NCBI RefSeq assembly: GCF_001995255.1
Contig: NZ_MUZR01000023.1
Span: 1-64,000, forward strand
Origin: Thioalkalivibrio halophilus
GTDB lineage: Bacteria > Pseudomonadota > Gammaproteobacteria > Ectothiorhodospirales > Ectothiorhodospiraceae
Length of the DNA: 64,000 nucleotides
Reading direction: 5' to 3'
Part shown: positions 1,908 to 12,373 of the stretch, piece by piece
Position numbering within the stretch: position 1 is the stretch's first letter
How the letters are laid out: each line of letters starts with the position of its first letter
Notes under the pieces: generated by a model
What the model was told of the DNA's origin: nothing
Seen by the model: only the letters and a program-made list of their open reading frames with translations
Databases searched by the model: none
Translations under genes and position numbers: made by a program

Positions 1908-2729
1908 TCAGCCGTTCATTCCTTCTGCGAGCAGGCGCAGGCGGCCGAGGCGCCGCACCTGAGGACTGGTGGACAGATCCACGGGCAGGATCGTCGCCGG
2001 ATTCGGATCGGGTACCGGGTGCGGACTGAAGCCCCCCGCGACGAAACGGCGTTCCTGCCGCAGTCGATGATAGGCCCCGACCAGTTCCTCTTCGTTGACG
2101 GGTTCGGGCATCAACGCCTGACCCTGCCCCATTGATCCGGCACCGCGTGCCTCCAGCCATTCGCGAACCAGTTCCCGGACATCCACATCGGGGAAGGGCT
2201 GGTCGAGACGGGCGGCGACCACGATGGTGGGCGCCAGTTCCGCCTGGCGCATCGCCTGATAGACCAGTTCGCTGCAGACCATATGCTCCGGGTCGAAACA
2301 GATCAGGTGATCGACCAGTTCGCGCAGCAGCCAGCGCAGACAGCCGTCTTCCGGAATCCGGTCACGCACGACCGCGACGGCCGCCAGCTGCACCAGCATG
2401 TCCACGGGGTAATCCACGCCGACCTGCTGGCTTGCCGCCCGGGCCAGTCGCTCCCTTTGCACCTCGTCCAGCGGGTTGCCGTCATCGGCGGTTGGGCGAA
2501 AGACCTCAATGAAGTGATAAGCGTCGGTCTGACGCAGTCGCTCGTCGAGCGCCACCATGCGTGACCGTGGCATGGCCGCCTCGACGAAATGGGTGTCGGA
2601 ACACATGACCGCCGCATGGCTGTAGACCGAATCACCGAACCAGGCGATCAGATCCGAAAGCGAGCTTCTGCCCCGCATCAGCAGGATATCGCCTGCCTGC
2701 AGCTCAGTGGTGTCAATATACGGTTTCAT
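1908..2729 (-). CDS. YiiX/YebB-like permuted papain-like hydrolase (peptidase family C92)
   Basis: Circularly permuted NlpC/P60-type fold in which the catalytic His precedes the Cys. Visible are the N-terminal DILLMRG strand, the SHAAVM motif with candidate catalytic His38, and EHMVCSELVYQ with candidate nucleophile Cys152. No signal peptide is evident, so it is probably cytoplasmic. The start at 2729 is chosen because GGGAGGG lies about nine bases upstream. An in-frame ATG at 2738 sits directly on that motif and longer starts lack one. The gene begins inside the last 17 bases of the upstream diguanylate cyclase gene, suggesting translational coupling. The substrate (peptide, amide or lipid ester) cannot be told from sequence. 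Confidence 0.75.
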   Translation of the reverse strand: MKPYIDTTELQAGDILLMRGRSSLSDLIAWFGDSVYSHAAVMCSDTHFVEAAMPRSRMVALDERLRQTDAYHFIEVFRPTADDGNPLDEVQRERLARAASQQVGVDYPVDMLVQLAAVAVVRDRIPEDGCLRWLLRELVDHLICFDPEHMVCSELVYQAMRQAELAPTIVVAARLDQPFPDVDVRELVREWLEARGAGSMGQGQALMPEPVNEEELVGAYHRLRQERRFVAGGFSPHPVPDPNPATILPVDLSTSPQVRRLGRLRLLAEGMNG

Positions 2730-4428
2730 CGCGGACATCCCTCCCTGTCGACTCGAAATCCACCGGGTCGGGGGCACGGACCACACGGTTGCGGCCACCC
2801 CCCTTTGCCCGATAGAGCGCATCGTCCGCCCGCTCTAAAAGATGCTCCAGCGATTCGCCATACCCCCGATGGGCAAGACCAATCGAAACCGTGAGATGAA
2901 TCTCATGCCCGTCCACACGCCTGCAATCCTTGCTGACCGCCTCACGCAGGGTCTCGGCAACTCGACTGGCGTCACCGAGATTCTCCTCCAGCACCACAAC
3001 AAACTCCTCACCGCCATAGCGCGCGACCAGATCGTGCTGACGCAAATGGCGCTGCAGGGTACGGGCCGCTTCCTGCAGACAACGATCGCCGAAGGCATGG
3101 CCATGGGTGTCGTTCAGAGTCTTGAAATGGTCCAGATCGACAAACAACACGCTCAGTGGACGATCTGCCAATTGCGCGCCCTGCGCCAGCTCCTGCAGAC
3201 GATCGTTCAGCCGTGCCCGGTTCGGCAATCCGGTCAGCGCATCGGTGACAGCCCGCCGCCGCGCCTGATGCATCTCGCGCTCGGCATGGCGCGCCGCCAG
3301 GGCACCGGCGAGCACCAGCACCAGGGCGCTGGTCACGTGCGTCGCGGGGTGGGCGTATTCAAGCCACACGGGCGTCCCGTCGCCCATCAGGAAATGGCCG
3401 GCGCGAGCCATCACCACCACGGTCACGCCTCCCCAGCCCACGAGATAGAACCACGCCTGACCGACACCGGCACGTGCCTGCAGGACGGCCACCCCCAGCG
3501 TGATCGTCGCGAGCACCAGCAACAGGAGGTTCATCCACCCCGCAAGCCATGCACCCGGGAACACCAGCCCCGCCAGCAGGAATCCGGCCACCATCCACAG
3601 CAGGCCGCGAAACACCCGTGCCAGCCGCGGGAAGGCCCGGCGAATGTCGAGAAACAGGTAGAGGGCGGAAAACGCCGCCAGGGTGCCGATACTCGCAACC
3701 AGGCTGGCCGCCTGCAGCGCGACGCCCCCGTCGACGGGCCCGGGCCAGAGCACCAGCGCTTCCCCGCTCAGGACCGCAAAGTACACCCCGCCAAAGAACA
3801 CCCACATGCCCAGAAGCCCGTGCGCCAGACGTCGCAGGGTCGCGGCGAAGATCGCGCTGACCAGGCCAAGAAGCACACTGGCCGCCAGCACCGCGGAGGT
3901 AAAGCGCACGCGTTGACGATCGGACTCGAGGTAGGACGACGCCGATGTCGCACTCAGACCGATGGGCTGTGAACGGGCCTCGAGGATCCGGAAATAAACG
4001 GGATGATCCGAACTCGCGGACTCCAGCTCCAGTGCGAGACGGTGCCGGGAACCGACTACCGGGGCGTTAGGGTCGAACAGCTCCAGTGTCTCCGGACGGT
4101 AATCTGGCGGGCGGTACACCACCAGACGCGCGTCGAACACCTCCCGCAGCGCCAGCACCCGGGGCTCATGGTTGTCCTCCTGCGGCTCGAACCGCACCCG
4201 CCACCAGCGGCTGTGATCACGCTCGATGGCCGTGCGCCCCGGCTGCGCCTCCCAGTCCAGCTCGGCCAGGGCCGCGGCGTCCGGGTCCTCCGGGACGGCC
4301 TCCTCTGCCAGGGAATCGATGTGGAGGTTCGCGTCGGCCACCGACATCGCCGGGACGAGGGAAAACAGCAACAACGCACCCCGCAGGATCACGCCAGTCA
4401 CGAATCCCGCGCCTCCCGGACACGGCAC
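2713..4428 (-). CDS. Membrane diguanylate cyclase with 7TMR-DISM sensor
   Basis: Predicted inner-membrane enzyme making c-di-GMP from two GTP. It has an N-terminal hydrophobic signal (about 14-32) and a periplasmic beta-rich domain (about 35-165) of the 7TMR-DISM extracellular type. About seven hydrophobic segments follow between 175 and 380, then a short linker and a C-terminal GGDEF domain. The active-site motif is YGGEEF with GGEEF at 472-476, which is catalytically competent. An RxxD inhibitory site (R463-D466) stands five residues before it, so product feedback is expected. The first codon is GTG. A second GTG at 4401 has a better GGGAGG ribosome site and could be the true start. It is divergent from the GGCT-like gene across an AT-richer 176-bp gap. 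Confidence 0.88.
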   Translation of the reverse strand: MPCPGGAGFVTGVILRGALLLFSLVPAMSVADANLHIDSLAEEAVPEDPDAAALAELDWEAQPGRTAIERDHSRWWRVRFEPQEDNHEPRVLALREVFDARLVVYRPPDYRPETLELFDPNAPVVGSRHRLALELESASSDHPVYFRILEARSQPIGLSATSASSYLESDRQRVRFTSAVLAASVLLGLVSAIFAATLRRLAHGLLGMWVFFGGVYFAVLSGEALVLWPGPVDGGVALQAASLVASIGTLAAFSALYLFLDIRRAFPRLARVFRGLLWMVAGFLLAGLVFPGAWLAGWMNLLLLVLATITLGVAVLQARAGVGQAWFYLVGWGGVTVVVMARAGHFLMGDGTPVWLEYAHPATHVTSALVLVLAGALAARHAEREMHQARRRAVTDALTGLPNRARLNDRLQELAQGAQLADRPLSVLFVDLDHFKTLNDTHGHAFGDRCLQEAARTLQRHLRQHDLVARYGGEEFVVVLEENLGDASRVAETLREAVSKDCRRVDGHEIHLTVSIGLAHRGYGESLEHLLERADDALYRAKGGGRNRVVRAPDPVDFESTGRDVRDETVY

Positions 4429-6212: not shown

Positions 6213-9200
6213 ATGACCACCGAGGCCCTGCGGCTGACCGGATACCGGGTCGGGCCTGTCCTGCGCCGCGACCGCGAACGCGTGCTTTACCAGGCACGCG
6301 AGGAATGCTCCGGGGAAGAACGGGTCATCGAGACCCTGGCCTCGGATTATCCGTCGCGGCGGCAGCTGGCGGAGATCCGCCGGGACGGACGCATCACCCG
6401 CGCACTGGCGGACGTCGACGGGGTCCTGCAGGTCCATGCCGTGGAGACCTGTGGCCGCGGACGCACGGCGCTGGTAACCGAACCGGTGACGGAGACCCTG
6501 AGCGACCGGCTGGCGCGGGCACCCGACGGCCGGATGCCGCTCGCGCAGGGGCTGACCATGGGCGGTCACATCGCGGAGATCCTGGACGGGCTCCATGCCC
6601 GGGGCATGGTGCACAAGGCCGTCACCCCCGACCATATCCGCCTGCCCGCCGACGAGGATTCGCCGCGGCTCACCGGGTTCGGTCTGGCCTCGGAGCTCGG
6701 GCGCGAACGCCAGGGATCGCTGGAGGCCGGCAGCCGGGCGCCCCTGCCCTATCTCTCGCCCGAACAGACCGGGCGCATGAACCGCGAACTGGATTACCGC
6801 AGTGACTTCTATTCCCTGGGCGTCACGCTGTTCGAGGCCCTTGCCGGACAACGCCCGTTCACCGCCGAAAGCGTCCTCGAATGGGTTCATGCCCACATCA
6901 GCCAGACGCCTCCGGACCCCGGCGACCTGGCCCCCGATCTCCCGCCCGCGGTCGCGCGGATCCTGCTGCGGCTGCTGGCCAAGGATCCCGAGCATCGCTA
7001 CCAGACCGGCGCGGGTCTGGCGCACGACCTGGCCGAGTGCGCCGAGGCCGTGGCGTCCGGCGCTGGGCTCGAGGACTTCGAGCCAGCGCGGCATGACCGG
7101 CCGACCCGCTTCCTCCTGCCGCAGCGGCTGTACGGCCGGGAACGGGAGCTGGACGAACTCGCGGAGCTGTTCGAATCGGCCGCGGCGGGCGGCACCGAAC
7201 TGTGCCTGGTGCACGGCTACTCCGGCGTCGGCAAATCCGCCCTGGTCAACGAGATCGACCGCCCGCTGGTACGGGAACGGGGCTTTTTCGCGCGGGGCAA
7301 GTTCGACCAGTTCCATCAGGGCGCCTACTCCGCAATAGCCGCCGCCTTCCGCACCCTGGTACATCAGCTGCTGGCCGAACCGGAGGCGCGGCTTGCACGC
7401 TGGAAGCAACGGCTGAACGAGGCGCTGTCTCCCAACGCTCAGCTGGTGCTGGATCTGGTCCCGGAACTGGAACTGATCATCGGTCCCCAGCCACCGGTCG
7501 CCGAGCTGCCTCCCGACGAGGCACGCAACCGCAGCCGAATCGTGCTGGCCGACTTCGTCCGGGTGTTTGCCGGCCGCGGGCACCCGCTGGTCCTGTTCAT
7601 CGACGACCTGCAGTGGAGTGACGGTCCGACCCGAGACCTGATCAGGCAGCTCGCCCTGTCACGCGATACCGACCACCTCCTGATCATCGGCGCCTATCGC
7701 AGCAACGAGGTGCCCCCGGGGCACCCCCTGCACCAGGCCTTCGAGCCCGTGCGCGCGGGGCGCCCGGTACACGACCTGCCGGTCGCTCCGCTGGACCGCG
7801 ACTCCATACGCCGCATGGTGGCGGATACCCTGCAGGACGACGAGGCGCGGGTTCGCCCGCTGGGCGACCTGGTCCACGACAAGGCCCGGGGCAACCCGTT
7901 CTTTACCGGCGAGCTGCTGCAGACACTGCATGACGAAGGCGTCATCCGTCCCGGTCCCGACGGCGGCTGGACCTGGGACACGGAAGCCGCCCTGTGGGCG
8001 GGACTCAGCAGCGACATCGTCGAGTTCATGATCGACAACCTGCGCAAGCTGCCGGAAGCCACCGGCCGCGTCCTGCAGCTCGCCGCCTGCATCGGCAACA
8101 CCTTCGAACTCGAGACCCTGGCGGTGATCAGCGAATGCCCGGCCACGGAGGTGGCCGAGACCCTGATGCCCGCCCTGCGCCAGCACACCATCGTGCCGCT
8201 GCACGCCGACTATCGCCTGGTGGGACACGCCCCGGACGACGGTGCGCCGGAAGAGAACCGGTGGAACCCGGTCTACCGCTTTGCACACGACCGCGTCCAG
8301 CAGGCCGCCTACCGCCTGTCGGATGCGCGCGAGATGACCGACGTGCATTTGTCCATCGGCCGCCTGATGCGCCGGCATTCCGGTGACGCGATCGAGGGCG
8401 ACCGTCTGATGGAGATGGTCCGCCATCTCAATGCGGGACGCTCGCTGATCGAGGATCCCGAAGAACGTCTTGCGCTGGCCCGCTTCAACCTGCGCGCGGG
8501 GACACGCGCGCGCAACGTGGCGGCCTACGAAACCGCCTACGAACTGCTGCACGTCGGCCATACCCTGCTGCCCGAACCGACAGACGCCACGCACCCGGAA
8601 CTGGCGTTCGAACTGGCCCGGGAGCTGCAGCAATGCGCCTATCTGACCGGCCGGCAGGACGAGGCCGAGGAATGGGCCGGGCTCCTGTTCGACCACGCCC
8701 CCGGGACCTACGAAAAGGTGGAACTCCTCTCCACCCGCACCCGCCAGTACGCAACGCTTGGCCGCATGGAGGCCTCCATGCACACGGCCATCGAGGGCCT
8801 GCGCCTGTTGGGCGTGGAGATCCACGAGGATCCCGGCGACCGCGAGGTGGCCGAGGAGCGCGCACGCATCACGGAGCACCTCGGGGATCGGGCGATCGCC
8901 GACCTGCTGGACGCCCCGAACGTCGAGGACCGTTCCGTGCTCCTTGCCATGCGCCTGCTGATGGAGATCTTCCCGGCATCGTTCCTGTCGGGCAGCGGCA
9001 ACCTGTTTCCGTATCTGGTCTTCAAGGGCGTGAATCTGTCCCTGCGCCATGGTAACTGTCCCGAAGCCGCCTTCATCCACGCCGCCTACGGGATGCTGCT
9101 GTGTGGCGAGCTGGATGACCCTGCGCTGGGGCTCGAGTACGGCCGCCTGGGTCTGGCCATCAACGAACGATTCGACGACCTCGCCCTGCGGGCACGGGTG

Positions 9201-11333
9201 ATCTACGTCTACGCGATGTTCATCCACCACTGGAGCCATCACTGGTCCAGCCTGACCCCATGGTTCCGGCGCGGCATCGAGGCCGGCCACCAGTCCGGCG
9301 ATCTCCTCTATCTGGCCTACAGCGCCCAGGACTGCGTGATCTGGGACCCGGCACTGGACCTGCCGGAGGCCACGCGCCAGCATGAGAAAAACATCGCGAT
9401 CGTCCGCGAATGCAACTATCGCGACTCGCTGGATTCGGCCACCCTCTTCCTGCAGATGCAGTACGCCTTTCAGGGCCTCACGCGGGACCCGCTGTCGCTG
9501 AGCGACGAGCGGTTCGACGAACTCGCCTGCCTCGACGGCATGCACCAGCGCCAGTTCATGACCGGAGTGGCCAACTACCACATCTACAAGGCCGAGGTCG
9601 CCGTCCTGCACGACGCCCCCGAGCACGCCCTGGAGCACCTGGCCCGCCGGCAGCGTCTGATCCGTTCGGCCATGTCGCTGCCGCAGCTGGCGCGCTTCTA
9701 CCTGCTGGACTTCCTGGCCTGCGTCCGGGTCCATCCCGATCGCGTCACGACGCCTGACGACCCGATGCGGCACCAGCTGCTGGAAGACCTGGACCGGATC
9801 CGGCGCTGGGCCGACCACTGTCCGGACAACTTCCTGCACCTGCAGTATCTGATGGAAGCCGAGCTGGAACGCCTGTCCGGCAGCGACGAACCGGCCATGG
9901 AACGATACGAGGCCGCCATCGAAGCGGCCGCGGCCAGCGGATTCATGCGCGACGAGGCGATGGCCAGCGAACGGGCCGCATCGCACCTGCTGGCCCGGGG
10001 TCGCCGCCGTGCGGCCGAGGGCTACCTGCGGGCCGCCCACCGGCTGTACGCGCGCTGGGGAGCGCGGCGCAAGGTGCGCCTGCTGGAGGAACGGCATCCG
10101 GTCCTGGAGGAGATCGCCGGCCCCGGCGGCGATCCCGGCGATGACGCCTTGGACCATAAGGATCTTGATCTGGCTTCGATCATGAAGGCTTCGCGCGCCA
10201 TCTCCGGAGAGATCGAGACCGAGAAGCTGCTGCGCACCAGTCTGGAGATCCTGCTCGAAAACGCCGGCGGCCAGTGGGCCTGTCTGGTCCGACGGGACCA
10301 GGGCCTGCCCGGCGTGGAAGCCATGGCCGGTGAACTGCCACAGGCACCGCCCGGCCCCGAACTCCAACCCGGACCCGGATCCGGGCCCGGCGCCATCGCC
10401 CCCGACGGCAGCGGCATCGCCCTGCCGATCTCCCTGGTCAGTCATGTCCTGGGCAGCGGCGAGCCCGTGGTCCTGGACAACGCCAGCCAGGAGGGGCCCT
10501 TCACCGACGACCCCGCCATCGCCGCGCGTCAGGTGGTCTCCGTGCTCTGCGTACCCCTGGGGCGGGAACGCTTCGTCGGGGCGCTGTACATGGAAAACAA
10601 CCTGACCGCCGGCGCCTTCCCCCCGGACCGCGCCGAGGTCGTCCGTCTGCTGGCCGCCCAGGCCGCCGTCGCGCTTGAAAATGCCCGGCTGTATGAACAG
10701 GTTCGGGAGTATTCCCGCACCCTTGAAGACCGCGTGGCCGAACGCACCCGCCAGCTCGAGGAAGTGAATCGCGAGCTGCAGAACCTCGCCGAGCGCGACG
10801 GCCTGACCGGTCTCGCCAACCGCCGGCGCGGCGACGACTACCTCCAGGAACAGTGGGACCGCCTGGGGCACGAACAGCGGCCCCTGTCACTGATCATGTT
10901 CGACGTCGACCATTTCAAGCCCTACAACGACCACTACGGGCACCCCGCCGGCGACCACTGCCTGATCACCATCGGCAGCATCATCCGCGAAACCCTCGAT
11001 GACCCGGAACAGCTGGCGGTGCGCTATGGTGGCGAGGAGTTCATGGTGATCCTGCCCGGCATCGACACCGATGCCGCACATGCGACGGCCGAGCGGCTGC
11101 GCGGGGCCATCCTCGAGCAGCAGCTGCCGCACGAATATTCCACGACCGCGGACGTGGTCACGGTGAGCATCGGGACCGCCACCCGGACCCCTTCGGGCCG
11201 CGGGGGACGTCAGGATCTGATCAACGAAGCCGACGAAGCCCTCTACCGCGCCAAGAAGGCCGGCCGCAACCGGGTCGCCGGCCCCGCCAACACCCGACCA
11301 CCGGACCCCGCCCGCGAATCCGGCTCGTCATGA
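6213..11333 (+). CDS. Giant pseudokinase - ATPase - GAF - GGDEF signalling protein
   Basis: A 1706-residue soluble protein. Domain order: a protein-kinase-like domain (1-275), an AAA/STAND-type ATPase with Walker A GYSGVGKS (335-342), a long helical repeat region (about 600-1290), a GAF domain (about 1325-1490), a short coiled coil and a GGDEF domain with GGEEF at 1606-1610. The architecture follows the PknB-like kinase/predicted-ATPase sensors of cyanobacteria and proteobacteria. The kinase retains SPEQTGR (182-188) and YRSDFYSLG (195-203) but looks dead. The lysine position of VAIK reads Glu40, the HKD catalytic loop reads HKA (134-136), the metal-binding Asn is His141, and DFG is GFG (155-157). 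The cyclase motif is intact, but there is no RxxD inhibitory site before it. The likely role is a nucleotide-dependent platform controlling c-di-GMP synthesis. The input signal is unknown. Confidence 0.85.
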   Translation: MTTEALRLTGYRVGPVLRRDRERVLYQAREECSGEERVIETLASDYPSRRQLAEIRRDGRITRALADVDGVLQVHAVETCGRGRTALVTEPVTETLSDRLARAPDGRMPLAQGLTMGGHIAEILDGLHARGMVHKAVTPDHIRLPADEDSPRLTGFGLASELGRERQGSLEAGSRAPLPYLSPEQTGRMNRELDYRSDFYSLGVTLFEALAGQRPFTAESVLEWVHAHISQTPPDPGDLAPDLPPAVARILLRLLAKDPEHRYQTGAGLAHDLAECAEAVASGAGLEDFEPARHDRPTRFLLPQRLYGRERELDELAELFESAAAGGTELCLVHGYSGVGKSALVNEIDRPLVRERGFFARGKFDQFHQGAYSAIAAAFRTLVHQLLAEPEARLARWKQRLNEALSPNAQLVLDLVPELELIIGPQPPVAELPPDEARNRSRIVLADFVRVFAGRGHPLVLFIDDLQWSDGPTRDLIRQLALSRDTDHLLIIGAYRSNEVPPGHPLHQAFEPVRAGRPVHDLPVAPLDRDSIRRMVADTLQDDEARVRPLGDLVHDKARGNPFFTGELLQTLHDEGVIRPGPDGGWTWDTEAALWAGLSSDIVEFMIDNLRKLPEATGRVLQLAACIGNTFELETLAVISECPATEVAETLMPALRQHTIVPLHADYRLVGHAPDDGAPEENRWNPVYRFAHDRVQQAAYRLSDAREMTDVHLSIGRLMRRHSGDAIEGDRLMEMVRHLNAGRSLIEDPEERLALARFNLRAGTRARNVAAYETAYELLHVGHTLLPEPTDATHPELAFELARELQQCAYLTGRQDEAEEWAGLLFDHAPGTYEKVELLSTRTRQYATLGRMEASMHTAIEGLRLLGVEIHEDPGDREVAEERARITEHLGDRAIADLLDAPNVEDRSVLLAMRLLMEIFPASFLSGSGNLFPYLVFKGVNLSLRHGNCPEAAFIHAAYGMLLCGELDDPALGLEYGRLGLAINERFDDLALRARVIYVYAMFIHHWSHHWSSLTPWFRRGIEAGHQSGDLLYLAYSAQDCVIWDPALDLPEATRQHEKNIAIVRECNYRDSLDSATLFLQMQYAFQGLTRDPLSLSDERFDELACLDGMHQRQFMTGVANYHIYKAEVAVLHDAPEHALEHLARRQRLIRSAMSLPQLARFYLLDFLACVRVHPDRVTTPDDPMRHQLLEDLDRIRRWADHCPDNFLHLQYLMEAELERLSGSDEPAMERYEAAIEAAAASGFMRDEAMASERAASHLLARGRRRAAEGYLRAAHRLYARWGARRKVRLLEERHPVLEEIAGPGGDPGDDALDHKDLDLASIMKASRAISGEIETEKLLRTSLEILLENAGGQWACLVRRDQGLPGVEAMAGELPQAPPGPELQPGPGSGPGAIAPDGSGIALPISLVSHVLGSGEPVVLDNASQEGPFTDDPAIAARQVVSVLCVPLGRERFVGALYMENNLTAGAFPPDRAEVVRLLAAQAAVALENARLYEQVREYSRTLEDRVAERTRQLEEVNRELQNLAERDGLTGLANRRRGDDYLQEQWDRLGHEQRPLSLIMFDVDHFKPYNDHYGHPAGDHCLITIGSIIRETLDDPEQLAVRYGGEEFMVILPGIDTDAAHATAERLRGAILEQQLPHEYSTTADVVTVSIGTATRTPSGRGGRQDLINEADEALYRAKKAGRNRVAGPANTRPPDPARESGSS

Positions 11334-11951
11334 ACCGGGCCCCTGACCCGGGCCACCCGTTTCCCGCGTGCGGCGGTGCAGCCACCGCACCAGGCGGTGC
11401 GTGAGCCACCACATCACGGTGCAGAACAGCACCACGAACGCCAGCCACAGTTCGGGTGCGACCCATTCCTGCGGCTGGCCGTGCGGGCCCAGTACCCAGT
11501 TCAGGTTGCCCGCCTCCTCCGCGACCGCGTAGCTGGCCAGCAGGACGCCCCAGCCAATCGGCAGCCACCACTTCCAGGCCTGCGCGTCGTAACCCAGGCG
11601 CCAGACCATCCACAGCAGCGCGAACGGCAACGGCAGGTGATAGAGGGAAAGCAGGCGCACGTGCAGCGGGATGTCGGTGTTGTACATGTAGTGCACGGCA
11701 CCGATGACCGGATTGCCTAGCAGCAGCAGGCTGAGCACCAGGTCGAGGACCCAGACGAGCTCCGGCAGCAGGACCGCGACCAGCAGCATGGAGGCGAGAC
11801 GCCGGTTTTCCAGCCAGGCGGCCGCGCAGCCGGCCACCAGCGCGATGGAGGACAGCCAGAGGAAATTCAGCGGCCCGTATTCCTGCAGGTACACGGGCAC
11901 CAGCACGGCGAGGAAGGCGAGCCAGCTCAGCTTGAACCACAGCGGGATCAT
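11328..11951 (-). CDS. Small multi-pass membrane protein of unknown function
   Basis: A 207-residue protein with about five to six hydrophobic segments, beginning IPLWFKLSWLAFLAVLVPVY. Aromatic and histidine-rich loops (VHYMYNTDIPLHVRLL and SLYHLPLP) lie near the middle. I do not recognise a named family. The start at 11951 is the first ATG before the hydrophobic core and has GGAGA about ten bases upstream. The longer open frame upstream runs through the REP array and is not credible. Its stop codon is back to back with that of the giant signalling gene (TCATGA at 11328-11333), with no spacer at all. Confidence 0.7.
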   Translation of the reverse strand: MIPLWFKLSWLAFLAVLVPVYLQEYGPLNFLWLSSIALVAGCAAAWLENRRLASMLLVAVLLPELVWVLDLVLSLLLLGNPVIGAVHYMYNTDIPLHVRLLSLYHLPLPFALLWMVWRLGYDAQAWKWWLPIGWGVLLASYAVAEEAGNLNWVLGPHGQPQEWVAPELWLAFVVLFCTVMWWLTHRLVRWLHRRTRETGGPGQGPGS

Positions 11952-12373
11952 CGCGCGGCGGTCTCCGTTCGACCAGTCCCCATCATGGAGGCTCACCCGG
12001 TGCCTGTCATCGCGCGCCGGCAAGGCACCCTCCTGCGGCCCGGAGGGAAGGTGCCGCAGGAGGCCAGCCCCCCTGGCCGATCCGGCGCAGGAGATTCCCC
12101 GAACGCACAATCGGCCGGAGGGCCGGCCTCCTACCGGGGGCAGGGTTCGACCCGTCGTAGGAGGCCAGCCTCTGGCCGATCCGGCGCAGGAGATTCCCCG
12201 AACGCACAATCGGCCGGAGGGCCGGCCTCCTACCGGGGGCAGGGTTCGACCCGTCGTAGGAGGCCAGCCTCTGGCCGATCCGGCGCAGGAGATTCCCCGA
12301 ACGCACAATCGGCCGGAGGGCCGGCCTCCTACCGGCCGGGGCAACCGTAGGAGGCCAGCCGATCCGGCGCGCC
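11952..12373. other. Non-coding gap filled mostly by the REPIN array
   Basis: This 422-bp stretch contains no credible gene. Its right three quarters is the tandem REPIN array. The left part (11952-12055) must hold the promoter of the membrane protein gene, though I see no clear sigma-70 hexamers. It also contains an 11-bp perfect inverted repeat, CCTCCTGCGGC (12029-12039) and GCCGCAGGAGG (12053-12063), which runs into the first REP and may be a diverged fourth unit. Confidence 0.7.
12056..12371. repeat. Tandem array of three REPINs plus a broken fourth REP
   Basis: Three near-identical units lie at 12056-12134, 12157-12233 and 12256-12332. Each starts with GTAGGAGGCC (GCAGGAGGCC in the first) and ends with its inverse, GGCCTCCTAC. 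Each end is a REP with its own hairpin (GGCCAG-CCT-CTGGCC on the left), so a unit is two REPs in inverted orientation, i.e. a REPIN. Units are separated by an identical 22-bp spacer (12135-12156 and 12234-12255), giving a 99-bp period. At 12347-12371 a fourth left REP has lost about seven bases of its palindrome. The GTAG head is typical of REPs mobilised by RAYT transposases. No RAYT gene is in this window. Confidence 0.85.

Follow-up and report, generated by a model that had tools for sequence, protein, structure and literature searches.

A predicted pseudokinase joined to a STAND-type ATPase and a diguanylate cyclase, encoded in a conserved three-gene operon of Thioalkalivibrio halophilus

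The DNA analysed here, a stretch of 64,000 nucleotides from Thioalkalivibrio halophilus referred to below as the window, carries three consecutive genes, A, B and C, whose positions are collected in Table 1 with the domains and motifs of gene C. The reading frame of gene C starts with ATG and is open throughout. On the divergent side the neighbouring gene (2713-4428) encodes a 7TMR-DISM membrane protein with a GGDEF domain, in which the I-site RQHD (RxxD present) precedes GGEEF. Just downstream of gene C, a minus-strand ORF (11328-12344) contains a 99-base unit repeated 2.8 times with 98% identity (12058-12335). In the window's own genome (G000), 50 GGDEF matches were found in 2.87 Mb, and the Pkinase matches were only two, one of them gene C.

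Table 1. Location of the three operon genes and of the domains and motifs of gene C in the window
Feature	Residues or length	Position	Strand	Basis or remark
Gene A, gamma-glutamylcyclotransferase/AIG2-like, first operon gene, TTG start	262 aa	4605-5393	+	Pfam
Gene B, metallo-beta-lactamase-fold protein, second operon gene	243 aa	5424-6155	+	Structure match
Gene C, pseudokinase, STAND-type ATPase, GAF, diguanylate cyclase	1706 aa	6213-11333	+	ORF, Pfam
Pseudokinase domain	8-285	6234-7067	+	Pfam Pkinase 27-272; complete kinase fold
Glu replacing VAIK Lys	40	6330-6332	+	Glu in 15/15 of clade; Lys in 97/100 others, gap in 3
HRD loop, Ala136 for catalytic Asp, His141 for metal-binding Asn	136, 141	6618-6635	+	136 Ala/Ser/Gly in 15/15; 141 variable within clade
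Gly replacing DFG Asp	155	6675-6677	+	Gly in 15/15 of clade; Asp in 95/100 others
AAA_16/STAND NTPase domain	305-492	7125-7688	+	Pfam 6.1e-41
Walker A GYSGVGKS	335-342	7215-7238	+	Intact
Walker B Asp-Asp	464-465	7602-7607	+	Intact
Middle region	741-1310	8433-10142	+	About 71% mean identity across the 11 first clade loci
GAF domain	1336-1488	10218-10676	+	Pfam 3.9e-11
GGDEF domain, WspR-like	1527-1687	10791-11273	+	Pfam 1.2e-45
I-site position, DPEQ		11001-11012	+	Comparison with clade members
GGEEF motif		11028-11042	+	GGDEF domain of gene C

The key Walker A and Walker B residues of the ATPase domain are among the columns invariant in 58 relatives. The middle region of gene C gave no Pfam match and, from knowledge of the family, is presumably a helical-repeat sensor arm, the repeats being part of this assumption. 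In the PDB the GGDEF domain was closest to 3bre (7.4e-45), a response regulator whose GGDEF is of the WspR type, and the motifs GGEEF, FDVDHFKPYND and AK..GRN are all present, so that the domain has both the GG(D/E)EF signature and the metal and substrate residues of a diguanylate cyclase. The motif check therefore bore out the original prediction, made from the letters of the DNA, that the P-loop ATPase and the GGEEF motif are intact.

The N-terminal domain of gene C scored 52 bits against the Pkinase profile (cut-off 31.7) and was modelled by AlphaFold as a complete two-lobed kinase with a mean pLDDT of 87.9, the activation loop being poorly ordered (pLDDT about 50 at residues 164-174). Foldseek ranked the Mycobacterium tuberculosis kinases PknB and PknA highest, with a TM-score of up to 0.86 on the target. 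The two lobes and the family profile above its cut-off identify the domain as having the kinase fold. Alignment with PknA, a solved kinase, placed the Lys of VAVK opposite Glu40, the HRD Asp opposite Ala136, the Asn opposite His141 and the DFG Asp opposite Gly155; none of the four residues of an active Ser/Thr kinase is thus retained, and all four losses claimed at the outset were confirmed. On these substitutions the assignment of a dead kinase is well supported. Since the fold is retained and the cyclase intact, it is also a reasonable reading that the pseudokinase may act as a scaffold for c-di-GMP production, as had been proposed.

To collect relatives, 84,980 genomes were scanned with a kinase-ATPase alignment, and the best 80 loci were taken. 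Among these 80 a clear step in identity separated twelve gammaproteobacterial loci (48-56%) from the rest (mostly 46% or less). With the loci added from a further genome search, the pseudokinase clade comprised 15 members (the window, G032, G313, G080 and L009-L019) and represents one gammaproteobacterial lineage of at least fifteen species, among them the culturable Marinobacterium lutimaris and Amphritea atlantica. The motif alignment showed Glu at position 40, Ala, Ser or Gly at 136 and Gly at 155 in every one of the 15, a combination which occurred in none of 100 other relatives, these being the nearest found and not an even sample; all four catalytic residues are kept by 88 of that hundred. 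The metal-binding Asn was lost in part of the clade only. In the closest relatives whose kinase residues are intact, the C-terminal output is either a class III nucleotide cyclase or a SpoIIE phosphatase. Alignment of the kinase domain with its homologs, the check suggested for the original prediction, thus showed the losses to be clade-wide, and the closest homologs, far from being intact, share them (14 nearest relatives). The accompanying remark that relatives keep the kinase residues was wrong for these 14 and right for most of the remoter ones.

On a tree of the ATPase-middle region the pseudokinase-GGDEF proteins formed one clade (SH-aLRT 100), and the kinase-domain tree, with the four motif columns masked, recovered the same clade (98) with a deeper order that was much alike. 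Identity within the clade was 64% for the kinase domain and 65% for the distal ATPase region, and the dN/dS values of the kinase domain (0.06-0.36, four pairs) were similar to those of the other domains; the dead domain is kept under purifying selection. Clade-specific, near-fixed residues were found at 26 kinase positions, and R19, R23, E40, T41 and G155 have become newly fixed in the clade where the active site was lost and in the glycine loop. We infer that Arg19 and Arg23, of the former glycine loop, might form with Glu40 a salt bridge closing the nucleotide pocket. The window copy is the fastest of the clade, its kinase branch (0.65) being about four times longer than that of its sister G313 (0.17), and on account of this long branch the window copy may be drifting.

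Every clade member checked has the GAF-GGEEF output, with GGEEF intact in 14 of 14. RxxD precedes it in 13 of the 14 members with a readable C-terminus, the window protein alone having DPEQ. The earlier statement that no inhibitory RxxD is present is therefore correct for the window protein and incorrect for the other 13, and, as these have kept the motif, loss of product inhibition does not belong to the general design of the system. Outside the clade the operon also occurs with intact kinases: in L020, L022 and G422 the output is a class III nucleotide cyclase and in L021 a SpoIIE phosphatase; the class III cyclase of G422, G610 and G655 was recognized by inspection of the sequence. Within one operon clade, then, three kinds of output (GGDEF, class III cyclase and SpoIIE) are found at the same position. 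In L023 and G610, which are sister to the pseudokinase clade, the HRD Asp is no longer present; G610 lacks the Asn as well, and in G655 both HRD and DFG are lost. The simplest reading of this series would be that kinase catalysis decayed stepwise and that, at the base of the clade, a diguanylate cyclase took the place of a nucleotide cyclase as output. A more distant relative from the same bacterial family, G046, combines intact kinase residues with GGDEF and RxxD and has neither A nor B. A GGDEF output thus has no need of a dead kinase and need not have been the cause of the kinase loss.

The stepwise loss along the operon tree and the long kinase branch of the window copy are what would be expected if the kinase domain were a passive, drifting remnant on a STAND-ATPase diguanylate cyclase, whose removal would disturb folding. 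We regard this as rather unlikely, because within the clade the kinase domain resembles its neighbouring domains in identity and dN/dS, and because of its 26 clade-specific positions. Other pseudokinases bind ATP or carry out AMPylation or glutamylation, and the losses of catalytic residues could in principle be compensated in some other way. The kinase domain might then have kept or gained another ATP-dependent or ligand-binding activity, as in SelO and SidJ, with Glu40 and Gly155 belonging to a remodelled site; both residues are invariant in the clade and not merely lost. This appears less probable still: the Lys, the HRD Asp and the DFG Asp have all disappeared, a canonical glycine loop cannot be recognized, and SidJ, by contrast, depends on the Lys and the DFG-type Asp that it has retained (PMC12599244). 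Sequencing error or recent decay in the window genome, to which the additional lack of the metal-binding Asn and of RxxD, kept by many or all relatives, might have pointed, was ruled out for practical purposes, because the three losses are common to the whole clade and recur in 14 independently sequenced genomes with ORFs open through the kinase domain.

Gene A matched the Pfam profiles AIG2_2 (1.7e-9) and GGACT (1.6e-7), both over the cut-off, and gave a weak match (1.2e-5) to human GGCT in the PDB. It is 55-63% identical to 14 operon copies, in which Glu82 and the YFGxGSN motif are invariant and the C-terminal extension is conserved; by its GGACT/AIG2 profile and conserved Glu it belongs with this group. 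We take Glu82 to be the catalytic Glu from what is known of the family. Gene B, 50-68% identical to 16 operon copies, matched no Pfam or NCBIfam family. Its AlphaFold model (pLDDT 93.8) was nearest to structure 2p97 (VIA-align Z 22.6, rmsd 2.3, 194 residues aligned), and comparison with true metallo-beta-lactamases gave a Z of about 18, which places the protein in the fold of the superfamily. The HxHxDH metal motif is absent; the conserved stretch is H-G/D-x-D-D (H83, D86, D87), and D155 and H216 are kept. Remoter homologues of gene B, 32-43% identical (L112-L119 and L123), have neither A nor C nearby, so that gene B belongs to a wider, uncurated family of metallo-beta-lactamase-fold proteins. 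Plasmid carriage was considered and rejected, gene B matching only three Vibrio replicons at 38% identity.

The original prediction had overlooked the operon. Comparison of the flanks showed A and B preceding C at all 12 of the first loci; in the 11 with a clustered ORF, B ends 0 to 58 bases upstream of C, and in the twelfth (L011) B was found by tblastn. The same order was found in G032, G313 and G080. In the last of these, a single-contig genome (L124, 1230-8355), the operon genes contain several frameshifts and the kinase stretch is open, the frameshifts representing either decay or indel errors of the assembly. Upstream of L023 only gene B was found. In a scan for promoters and terminators no signal rose above chance level. 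Gene A was present in 3 of 369 sampled genomes of the class, and the pseudokinase in exactly those three. The operon occurred in 2 of 30 genomes of the window's genus, a patchiness which suggests horizontal transfer or repeated loss, and it was found from Gammaproteobacteria to Bacteroidota. Because the order repeats in many families and in Bacteroidota, A and B are unlikely to be mere neighbours of C, and the set of three genes suggests a conserved, undescribed signalling system; conserved operon order alone is no proof of an action of A and B on C.

The CP1 family of O'Boyle et al. 2025 (PMC12599244), from cyanobacteria and proteobacteria, consists of bacterial Ser/Thr kinases and pseudokinases whose soluble kinase domain is in every case joined to a predicted ATPase of COG3899 and frequently accompanied by GAF (FhlA) or PAS; about 40% of its members were called pseudokinases. 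Gene C, with its kinase, AAA_16 ATPase and GAF domains, is in line with that description and may be a member of the CP1/COG3899 pseudokinase family. The degradation that the paper describes is mixed, and its text mentions neither a cyclase output nor an operon of the present type, whereas the window clade combines one fixed pattern of losses with GGDEF as output and with the partner genes A and B. Two CP1-like kinases outside the operon clade (L139 and L140) keep the VAIK Lys and have HKV/GFA and HGN/GFG motifs, in which the degradation of HRD and DFG apparently arose by separate losses. The cbSTKIII dual kinases of cyanobacteria, such as HstK (PMC2176072), also have an N-terminal kinase, of the 'KD' type (HKD), and a GAF domain, but their kinase residues are kept and they end in a histidine kinase, unlike the window protein with its dead kinase and GGDEF end; relatives L024-L088 are mostly cyanobacterial. 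A Ser/Thr kinase-TPR-GGDEF fusion in one 1826-aa protein of Clostridium thermocellum, listed in 2005 (PMC1262709), is similar to gene C, by its published domain make-up, in having a kinase domain and GGDEF on one chain.

For gene C the nearest working analogy is offered by receptor guanylate cyclases, whose dead kinase-homology domain has a regulatory role. In the eukaryotic proteins a kinase-like domain without catalytic residues and a nucleotide cyclase share one chain (PMC1262709); they differ from gene C in being membrane receptors with a class III cyclase and no ATPase, and no close kinship is claimed. The kinase-COG3899-GAF architecture with frequent pseudokinases (CP1) and the kinase-TPR-GGDEF fusion are thus already published. 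In the open-access literature no description was found of the clade, its fixed loss pattern, the operon or the output swap, nor any paper bringing together a gamma-glutamylcyclotransferase and a diguanylate cyclase, and the accessible portion of that literature contained no pseudokinase-diguanylate cyclase fusion of this kind.

Taken together, the clade-wide losses, the selection on the dead domain, the intact ATPase and GGEEF motifs, the operon and the output swap make it fairly probable, in our judgement, that gene C encodes a soluble, ATPase-driven transducer of the CP1/COG3899 type, in which the dead kinase is kept as a regulatory or docking module, in an operon with A and B. In such a transducer phosphate transfer by the kinase domain of the clade would be gone and the folded module kept. 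A signal, perhaps tied to the reactions of A and B, which would be part of signal handling, would change the nucleotide state of the STAND ATPase; this change would be passed through the helical region, the GAF domain and a coiled coil and would bring GGDEF domains together, the pair then synthesizing c-di-GMP. It is possible, although we put it forward more tentatively, that A, B and C make up an undescribed modular signalling system in which A and B provide the input of a STAND ATPase whose output can be exchanged between cyclic nucleotide, c-di-GMP and phosphatase, and that in one lineage the kinase domain gave up catalysis and came to regulate a diguanylate cyclase allosterically, as a bacterial parallel to receptor guanylate cyclases with their dead kinase.

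What is known of bacterial pseudokinases of the CP1/COG3899 family consists mostly of lists that assign them no function. The clade described here offers a dead kinase and a measurable predicted output, c-di-GMP, on one chain; relatives with an intact kinase in the same operon can serve as controls, and the two partner genes point towards the signal. With these the role of a pseudokinase in a COG3899 protein becomes directly testable.
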